DNA of 64,000 nucleotides from NCBI RefSeq assembly GCF_900108095.1, contig NZ_FNWL01000002.1:912748-976747 (forward strand), in the 5' to 3' direction. The stretch is from Natronorubrum sediminis (GTDB lineage Archaea > Halobacteriota > Halobacteria > Halobacteriales > Natrialbaceae). Of this stretch, positions 22,170 through 27,408 are shown in pieces (positions within the stretch are counted from its first letter, which is position 1; each line of letters opens with the position of its first letter). Below the pieces are notes generated by a model. The model was not told the origin of the DNA. It searched no databases and saw only the letters and a list, made by a program, of their open reading frames with translations. The translations under genes and the position numbers were made by a program.

Positions 22170-22240
22170 ACACCCCAGTGAGTCACGAGGCGAAAAACGA
22201 GTATCGGTCCGAAACGTCGACTCGTAGACCATCACAACGC

Positions 22241-22422
22241 TTTTATCCCGCTCGAGACAACTCGTAGCTACGATGGTAGGTGTCCGCTTTACAGGGGCTC
22301 TCGCCCGCTTCTAACTCCCACCTGCTGCTCGCTGTGTCACGCCGGATTCACAGTCGAGCGGTACCCGCGGACGCTCGACCGAACTTCTCTGTGAAGTTCA
22401 CCACCCAGCGATAGCCATACCA
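22241..22422 (+). promoter_or_regulatory. Structured thrS leader with mini-ORF
   Basis: A TATA-like TTTTAT at 22241-22246 predicts a transcript starting near 22270, giving a leader of about 150 bases before thrS. It opens with a 13-codon mini-ORF at 22273-22314 (MVGVRFTGALARF, stop TAA) whose only Thr codon is the rare ACA. GTAGGTG near 22276 can pair with CACCTGC near 22320 (one G-U pair) around a short GGGC/GCCC hairpin. A long hairpin follows at 22347-22395. Bacterial thrS genes are autoregulated through tRNA-like leader hairpins; an analogous function here is inference. Confidence 0.4.
22347..22395 (+). ncRNA. Two-step hairpin in the thrS 5' leader
   Basis: The outer stem TTCACAG (22347-22353) pairs with CTGTGAA (22389-22395). 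The inner stem TCGAGCG (22354-22360) pairs with CGCTCGA (22372-22378). An 11-base apical loop and a 10-base asymmetric bulge separate them. Fourteen perfect pairs in 49 bases is unlikely to be chance. I do not recognise the RNA family, so this is listed as a structured leader element. Confidence 0.45.
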
Positions 22423-24378
22423 ATGTCAGAATCAGATTCCCACTCCCAAGAACAGATTACGGTCGTACTGCCAGACGGCTCGGAACTCGCCGTCGCATCC
22501 GACGCCACGGTCGAGGACTGCGCCTACGAGATCGGTCCCGGTCTCGGCCGCGACACGGTCGCCGGGAAACTCGACGGCGACCTCGTCGCCAAGGAAGCAC
22601 CCGTCTACGACGGCGTCGAACTCGAGATCGTCACCGAGGGAAGCGAGGAGGCCCTCGAGGTCATGCGTCACTCGGCGTCGCACTGCCTCGCACAGGCAGT
22701 CGAACGCCTGTACGACGAAGACGAGGTCAAACTGGCCATCGGCCCGCCGACTGACGAGGGCTTTTACTACGACTTCGACAACCTCGAGATCGACGAAGAA
22801 GACCTCGCAGACCTCGAGCGAGAGATCGAGGAGATCATCGCGAAAGACTACGAGATCGAACGCGAGGACGTCTCGATCGAGGAGGCCGAGGAACGACTCG
22901 CCGACGAACCGTACAAACTCGAACTCCTCTCTGAGTTCGCCGACGAGAACGACACCGTCTCGTTCTACAAACAGGGCGAGTGGGAGGACCTCTGTGCCGG
23001 CCCGCACGTCGACTCGACCGGCGAAATCGGCGTCGTAAAACTGCTCGAGATCGCCGGCGCGTACTGGCGCGGCGACGAGGAGAACACGATGCAGACGCGA
23101 ATCTACGGGACGGCCTTCGAGGACGAAAGCGACCTCGAGGAGTTCGTCGAGCGCAAGGAAGAAGCCGAAAAGCGAGATCACCGCCGCATCGGTAACGAGA
23201 TGAACCTCTTCTCGATTCAGGACGTGACCGGCCCCGGCCTTCCGCTCTATCACCCGCCGGGAAAGACGGTCCTGAAGGAACTCGAGGACTTCGTCGAGGA
23301 ACTCAACCAGGACGCGGGCTACGATTACGTCGAGACGCCCCACGTTTTCAAGACGGATCTCTGGCACCGCTCTGGTCACTACGAGAACTACGCCGACGAC
23401 ATGTTCATCTTCGACGTCGGCGACGACGAATTCGGCCTGAAGCCGATGAACTGCCCCGGTCACGCCGCGATCTTCCAGGACCAATCCTGGTCGTACCGTG
23501 ATCTACCGATTCGCTACGCCGAGAACGGCAAAGTGTATCGAAAAGAACAGCGCGGAGAGCTGTCGGGCCTCTCGCGCGTCTGGGCCTTTACGATCGACGA
23601 CGGCCACCTGTTCATCCGTCCCAACCAGATCCGCAGCGAAGTCGAACAGATCATGGACATGATCACGGACGTCTTAGAGACGTTCGACCTCGACTACGAG
23701 ATGGCGCTCGCGACGCGCCCCGAGAAATCCGTCGGCAGCGACGAAATCTGGGAGCGCGCGGAGGAACAACTCGAGAACGTCCTCGAGGCGCGCAATCAGG
23801 AGTACGAGATCGAAGAGGGTGACGGCGCGTTCTACGGCCCGAAGATCGACTTCGCGTTCGAGGACGCGATCGGTCGTTCGTGGGACGGCCCGACGGTCCA
23901 ACTCGACTTCAACATGCCCGAGCGCTTCGACCTCGACTACGTCGGCGAGGACAACGAGGAACACCAACCCGTCATGATCCACCGCGCGCTCTACGGCAGC
24001 TACGAGCGCTTCTTCATGATGCTCATCGAGCACTACGAGGGACGGTTCCCGCTGTGGCTCGCACCCGAGCAGGTTCGCGTGCTCCCGATTTCGGACAATA
24101 ACCTCGGCTACGCCCACCGAGTCGCGAACGAGTTCGACGACTTCCGCGTCGAAGTCGACGGCCGCGATAGCACGCTCGAGCGCAAGATCCGTGCGGCCCA
24201 CGACGACCGCGTCCCCTATCAGATCATCGTCGGCGACAACGAGGAAGAAGACGGCAACATCTCGGTCCGGGATCGCTTCGAGGATCAGGAGTACGACGTC
24301 GAAATCGAGGAATTCAGAGCCCATCTCGAGAGCGAGCGCGACGAGCAGCGGACGGAACCGGACTTTCTGCAGGAGTAA
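22423..24378 (+). CDS. thrS: Threonyl-tRNA synthetase
   Basis: 651 residues, the bacterial-type full-length enzyme. Domains in order: TGS (about 10-75), second additional/editing domain with [17 protein letters not shown] near residue 85, class II catalytic core from about 250 with [34 protein letters not shown] and the [23 protein letters not shown] loop, then the anticodon-binding domain after [14 protein letters not shown] near residue 545. The HxxxH and Cys zinc ligands of the core are visible. It charges tRNA-Thr and edits mischarged Ser-tRNA. It is preceded by a structured leader. Confidence 0.97.
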
Positions 24379-27191: not shown

Positions 27192-27408
27192 TGGTATTCA
27201 CCGCGGGCGTTTCCTGGTTCAATCCCGACCGGGGCCGATTCCCCGCGGATCACATCCCGACCTGTGGTGGCGTCGACCGCCGAACAGGTGCCCACTGATG
27301 CCCGCGACTCAGCGAGACTACGTGTTGGTAGCCAACTCTCGAGTATAAGGGCTTCGAACTCCGCGAACGGATTCACCGAGACTCACACCGCACGTGTCGA
27401 TAAACCGT

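Follow-up and report, generated by a model that had tools for sequence, protein, structure and literature searches.

The threonyl-tRNA synthetase gene (thrS) in the window, i.e., the 64,000-nt stretch of Natronorubrum sediminis DNA analysed here, is preceded by a leader that probably acts as a leader-peptide (ribosome-mediated) attenuator. Conservation in this leader is centred on an ORF with an invariant threonine codon and on two competing pairings, and therefore points to leader-peptide control. Specifically, the leader combines three features by which we assessed membership of the attenuator class: a short in-frame ORF (all start-to-codon offsets in frame, with wobble-biased changes in its last two codons), a cognate codon at a fixed place (Thr ACA nearly everywhere, as one codon and not as a run) and mutually exclusive predicted structures that overlap the ORF (P1 and A:B2; see Table 1). 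As far as can be told from sequence, it works like the bacterial attenuators, among which its membership is putative.

Layout and distribution of the leader

An earlier note on this DNA had described a leader of about 150 bases with a 13-codon mini-ORF ahead of a synthetase gene, and both descriptions are accurate: the ORF has exactly this length and its ATG lies 150 nt from the start of thrS. The same ATG is 33 nt downstream of a TATA-like box, and in 109 of 113 distinct upstreams the TATA-like hexamer begins 31–34 nt 5' of the leader ATG; the leader ORF is therefore probably leaderless. Given that the box sits upstream of the predicted stems, the scenario that the earlier note had named as fatal, in which transcription starts downstream of them, finds no support in the sequence. 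By eye, the box is more distant from the leader ORF in family f17, and a short 5' extension ahead of the ORF is therefore likely in that family. In Natrialbaceae, conservation extends beyond the box itself (CCATCACAAyGCTTTTAtcc; about 22231–22248 in the window and the same place in relatives), and the flanking DNA may be a BRE or be bound by a regulator. Elsewhere in the window, Rfam places an eL15-Euryarchaeota ribosomal-protein leader at 27211–27288 on the minus strand (40 bits vs a cut-off of 33.7).

Table 1 Features of the thrS leader and its gene, in window coordinates
Feature	Position	Strand	Basis
TATA-like box CTTTTATCC, putative leader promoter	22240..22248	+	Sequence; hexamer spacing in relatives
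Leader ORF MVGVRFTGALARF, 13 codons, stop TAA, probably leaderless	22273..22314	+	Frame kept in 115/115, frame-blind
Segment A, ORF start, partner of B1 or B2	22274..22287	+	Pairing and covariation tests
Candidate sensor codon, Thr ACA, codon 7, after Phe TTT	22291..22293	+	TTT-ACA in 111/113
Hairpin P1a within the ORF (GGGC/GCCC)	22295..22306	+	Fold, alignment
Segment B1, directly past the ORF stop, pairs with 22274–22282 (P1)	22319..22327	+	Shuffle test
Hairpin P2 (14-base stem of the earlier note)	22323..22363	+	Fold, relatives
Segment B2, pairs with 22279–22287 (A:B2)	22367..22375	+	Window p 0.015; covariation
Hairpin P3 (7-bp stem of the earlier note)	22381..22399	+	Fold; two-sided changes
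thrS, bacterial-type threonyl-tRNA synthetase, 651 aa	22423..24378	+	TIGR00418, 664.6 bits; TGS and tRNA_SAD domains

A search with the leader DNA, run on 31 genomes drawn as relatives, was positive in 18 (counting the window's own genome); one of the 18 matches (G029, L076) is not located at thrS. The ORF-start motif had matches in 67 of 293 Halobacteriales genomes, from which four matches belonging to other genes (L079, L082–L084) were set aside. A covariance model, built on 27 of 41 alignment rows and leaving out diverged leaders in which MAFFT had misplaced B1 (alignment A1), matched 137 of 392 Halobacteriales genomes with one match per genome. Genomic context covers 87 of these 137 matches (the other 50 all have E < 1e-18), and 82 of the 87 lie upstream of thrS and carry an in-frame ATG-to-TTTACA ORF, a distribution that argues for attenuation. 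We judged five weak matches (L191–L195; E from 1.9e-5 to 0.006), which lie at other genes and not at thrS, to be chance. Within the window's own family the leader was matched in 94 of 96 genomes (counted by eye among the misses listed, which are sorted by kinship), and the two remaining genomes had no bacterial-type thrS match. In a draw of 392 genomes across the phylum we found nothing convincing outside Halobacteriales: all 25 matches fell within that order (including a chance match, G055) except for a partial one in G574 (E 0.008). No plasmid copies of the leader were found.

Across 188 distinct thrS upstreams, the leader ORF was present in 121 and absent from 67. A TATA-like box 20–37 nt ahead of thrS itself was found in 59 of the 67 upstreams without the ORF vs 3 of the 121 with it, and thrS genes that lack the leader therefore seem to be leaderless themselves. 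That many haloarchaea do without the leader counts against attenuation. Two genomes carry two bacterial-type thrS copies each (L117/L134 in G048; L143/L164 in G161); in both, the leader ORF is on the more diverged copy (55–58% identity) and absent from the 67–69% copy. At archaeal-type thrS loci, the leader was found in one of 16 examined, with no such ORF at the 15 others: in G290, the start of the ORF MLVGECFTRRA is 179 nt upstream of the gene for an archaeal-type ThrRS, which carries the PF08915 editing domain. The leader, by this comparison, follows function rather than gene family, as the same leader type stands before two unrelated ThrRS types, and its presence before the unrelated type in this one genome supports attenuation.

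Coding constraint and the threonine codon

We compared 113 distinct TATA-linked ORFs with TTY-ACN or GTG-ACA and found TTT-ACA in 111, GTG-ACA in one (L158) and one further case (L123) that looks like a chance ORF. By comparison, within 117 thrS genes ACA makes up 44 of 2,486 threonine codons (1.8%) and TTT makes up 195 of 2,981 phenylalanine codons. The invariance of TTT-ACA, set against the rarity of ACA, speaks for attenuation. We note that TTT (22288–22290 in the window) is as invariant as ACA in nearly all relatives, though TTC also encodes phenylalanine. Two aspects of this pattern count against attenuation: ACA is single in the leader ORF, without a threonine run, and the invariant TTT has no explanation under it.

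An in-frame ATG was a search condition for both the 113-ORF and the 121-leader sets, and the frame was recounted blind. In this frame-blind count all 115 TATA-linked ATG-to-TTTACA offsets were multiples of three (15 nt in 103 cases, 18 nt in nine, 51 nt in one and 66 nt in two). In the leaders with the 66-nt offset (L040/L197 and L196) the ORF is 51 nt longer and still ends in RFTRAFARF or RFTRAVARF before its stop; frame conservation throughout, including these two leaders with a 51-nt insertion, is a further argument for attenuation. So is the concentration of changes in codons 12–13 at third positions: among 37 distinct 13-codon ORFs (a set limited to those that begin MVG and whose codon 12 encodes Arg or His), third positions held 22 minor letters and the first two positions together held 2. 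By these patterns, the leader ORF is under coding-type constraint.

The conserved peptide and a TTT as invariant as ACA could also be explained if the ORF acted through its peptide (nascent M-x-G-x-x-F-T arrest) or through constant damping by translation, with no sensing of Thr-tRNA. This is unlikely, in our view, given that the residues past F-T differ widely among families, that the downstream gene can be either of two ThrRS types, and that the ORFs of pheS and trpS are rich in their own amino acids (see below).

Competing pairings in the predicted fold

The window leader (22241–22422) has a predicted minimum free energy of −65.2 kcal/mol (z −3.63); its 200 dinucleotide shuffles gave −51.1 ± 3.9 kcal/mol, and all of them were less stable. 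Its fold contains an outer 9-bp stem, A:B2, formed by GGUGUCCGC (22279–22287) and GCGGACGCU (22367–22375), and extended by GGT (22275–22277) with ACC (22378–22380). Inside it lies the nested hairpin that the earlier note had described as 14 perfect pairs; the stem is present, with a 14-nt 5' arm (22323–22336), but its 3' arm (22349–22353 and 22355–22363) contains one bulge. The additional 7-bp stem, P3, is as described (GAACUUC, 22381–22387, with GAAGUUC, 22393–22399), and in L198 and L199 both of its sides have changed (GAACTTC/GAAGTTC to GAACGTC/GACGTTC). The earlier note had missed the pairing P1, between TGGTAGGTG (22274–22282) and CACCTGCTG (22319–22327), with which the outer stem is incompatible. 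Because P1 and A:B2 use some of the same bases, they cannot coexist; in the predicted folds, they are mutually exclusive.

Of these pairings, P1 is conserved more widely. Tested against shuffled partners, it reached p ≤ 0.05 in 104 of 121 distinct leaders; the 17 others include the window, whose P1 contains G-U pairs and has a p of only 0.075. As judged from its arms, P1 survives sequence change: many Natrialbaceae have TGGTAGGTGT/ACACCTACCG, whereas L111 has GGCAGGTGTC/GACACCTGTC, L155 GTCGGTGATCG/TGATCACCGAC, L158 TGGCAGAA/TTCTGCCA and L134 GGTGACTG/TAGTCACC (P1 of L196 was assigned by eye, the script having picked a different stem). In L175 an extra hairpin lies between the ORF stop and B1, and P1 is still possible farther downstream (AGGTGTCC/GGACACCT). 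Against attenuation counts the finding that P1 is weak or lost in L050, L055, L094, L198 and L199, and likewise that A:B2 reached p ≤ 0.05 in 61 of 121 leaders only, mainly in Natrialbaceae; L198 and L199 have kept A:B2 while losing P1.

The end of segment A varies together with its downstream partner (in counts that, like those for P1 and A:B2 above, ignore kinship). Where A ends in CCGC (n = 57), the downstream sequence was GCGGA[CT] 51 times, ACGGA[CT] 8 times and GCAGA[CT] twice; with CCGT (n = 14), it was ACGGA[CT] 6 times and GCGGA[CT] once; and with CTGC (n = 11), it was GCAGA[CT] 6 times and GCGGA[CT] twice. When A ends in CTAC or CCAC, the expected B2 partner was found in one of 11 leaders only, and this counts against attenuation. 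In alignment A2, 92.6% of cells pair vs at most 52% when slid, and the covariation score lies above all 500 shuffles; in the same alignment taken alone, the number of pairs changed on both sides is 2, a value reached by 162 of 500 shuffles, which again counts against attenuation. Taken across the leaders, these patterns indicate that P1 and A:B2 both covary, and their covariation argues for attenuation. The covariation analysis that the earlier note had proposed thus yields a conserved, covarying leader, and its worry that relatives might lack the stems is not borne out.

Two further readings start from this structure. In Escherichia coli, ThrRS binds hairpins of the thrS operator that imitate the anticodon arm of the tRNA, and the earlier note had drawn an analogy to such bacterial hairpins. 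The haloarchaeal leader is likewise a structured, covarying leader on thrS, as one would expect if ThrRS bound it and repressed its own mRNA like the E. coli enzyme. Unlike in the operator, however, the loops of the haloarchaeal leader vary while the ORF is conserved: by eye, the P1a and P2 loops differ among relatives and no loop mimicking the tRNA-Thr anticodon is kept, ARAGORN found no tRNA in the window, and Rfam gave no match to the leader at its gathering threshold. The tRNA-mimic analogy is thus not upheld, and with conservation tracking the ORF frame and one leader type standing before two unrelated ThrRS types, putative binding by ThrRS is quite improbable.

T-box riboswitches (RF00230) exert codon-specific control of synthetase genes, as is proposed here for the haloarchaeal leader. 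The invariant UUUACA sits in the internal loop that separates helices P1 and P1a, where uncharged tRNA-Thr(UGU) could pair with it in an archaeal T-box-like element. We give this very little credence: no T-box covariance model matched at the Rfam threshold or, within 22200–22450, up to E 10 (a search that returned nothing except one chance snoRNA match), and the ATG, frame and stop are kept though direct tRNA binding would not need them. T-boxes have a specifier loop and an antiterminator, whereas the haloarchaeal leader keeps an in-frame ORF.

How a waiting ribosome might affect these pairings was approached by folding. When 16 leaders were folded freely, A:B2 formed in 7 (the window, L010, L029, L014, L075, L113 and L198), P1 in 7 (L085, L109, L111, L112, L080, L158 and L134) and neither in L002 and L155. 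In the “stalled” fold about 32 nt around ACA were blocked, which covers A, so P1 and A:B2 are lost by construction, and the telling quantity is the amount of structure left. Under this assumed footprint, predicted energies (which ignore high salt) went from −57.3 to −35.4 kcal/mol in the window, from −30.7 to −4.0 in L075 and from −27.7 to −3.1 in L113. With the stop-codon position blocked, A:B2 remained in the window, L010, L014, L002, L075, L085, L113 and L198 and was absent in L029. The stalled fold of L109, a short leader, had B1 paired near the Shine-Dalgarno sequence, opposite to the expected direction, and thus counts against attenuation, as does the finding of no bacterial-type terminator in the window's leader. 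The 12 nt that follow P1 have a T fraction of 0.34–0.37, vs 0.19 for the whole upstream, a weak sign of termination, and no state in the window folds clearly hid the thrS start.

Parallel ORFs and a model of ribosome-mediated control

We also examined the upstreams of other synthetase genes. TATA-linked ORFs with Phe-Phe or at least 3 Phe were found at 25 of 30 haloarchaeal pheS loci, including that of the window's own genome (MALESPARVKRDARRLRDRRGFGFFFAR; L232, G000:C4). These ORFs (L232 and 24 others among L233–L261) have 24–41 codons and contain a Phe run, which often reads GFGFFF close to the ORF end. Phe-Phe is specific, with no TATA-linked ORF containing it in 188 thrS upstreams, while the criterion of at least 3 Phe is unspecific, 42 of the 188 satisfying it. 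Of the 21 pheS ORFs tested, 19 have an early segment that can pair with the beginning of their Phe run (p of 0.06 or better), and this internal stem shows two-sided changes (e.g., CCGAATCCC/GGGATTCGG and CCGACCCCG/CGGGGTCGG); the pheS ORFs with their covarying stem are likely a second attenuator family. The parallel at trpS is thin: Trp-rich ORFs with WRW or WRWW (e.g., MNAAPWRWWSPASGADSPAVVVAAA in L262) were found at 7 of 28 loci (L262, L265–L269, L271), 5 of the 28 passing the TATA filter and L265 and L267 having WRW without it. Arms flanking the Trp codons (e.g., CCGCTCCC/GGGAGCGG) could form a hairpin with these codons in its loop. Shuffled upstreams gave ORFs with at least 3 Phe in no case and with at least 2 Trp in less than 1%. 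The occurrence of Phe-rich TATA-linked ORFs at pheS, and of Trp-rich ones at some trpS genes, lends support to attenuation at thrS.

The same parallels, together with the kept frame and the invariant ACA, speak against an element that is structural or tied to the promoter and does not sense amino acids, e.g., an mRNA-stabilising 5'-terminal stem. Such an element would fit two observations: P1 lies where the transcript probably begins, and DNA around the TATA box is conserved as well; even so, we hold it to be very unlikely. In the available text of a dRNA-Seq study of Haloferax volcanii, uORFs in long 5' UTRs include one of 26 aa before pheS and another, 23 aa long, ahead of a tryptophan--tRNA ligase. 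Both agree with our Phe- and Trp-rich ORFs; that text gives neither the peptide sequences nor an attenuation reading, and the name thrS is absent from its main text as available (PMC4983044).

Under ribosome-mediated attenuation, the transcript would start at or beside the leader ATG, as the TATA distance suggests, and a ribosome would load at the very 5' end of the leader. With ample Thr-tRNA, the ribosome translating the leader ORF would pass the single rare ACA and depart, so that A could pair with B1 (or, in many Natrialbaceae, B2), and the leader would close. With scarce Thr-tRNA, it would wait while ACA occupies its A site, segment A would be covered, neither pairing would form, and the leader would open. 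By analogy with bacteria, the open form would raise thrS expression; the output may be transcription termination, translation or mRNA stability.

The best-known amino-acid leader-peptide attenuators are bacterial, e.g., trpL, pheM (before pheST) and thrL of E. coli. Like these, the haloarchaeal leader has a short ORF with a cognate codon ahead of the gene for that amino acid, and mutually exclusive RNA pairings that overlap the ORF. Unlike these, it is archaeal, its ORF is probably leaderless and has one rare threonine codon instead of a run, the ORF's own start is the shared arm, and no clear terminator was seen. Our searches of an open-access library turned up neither a thrS leader nor a leader-peptide attenuator from archaea.

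More broadly, we incline slightly to the view that several haloarchaeal synthetase genes (thrS, pheS and some trpS) use ribosome-mediated attenuation via leaderless leader peptides. If true, a class of control so far known from bacteria would here be adapted to leaderless translation and, in the case of thrS, to a single rare codon. The conserved thrS leader across several Halobacteriales families and its Phe- and Trp-rich parallels would imply that in archaea the ribosome serves to sense the supply of amino acids, which is directly testable in tractable haloarchaea. Our comparisons suggest that archaea may sense amino-acid shortage via a stalled ribosome, as bacteria do.
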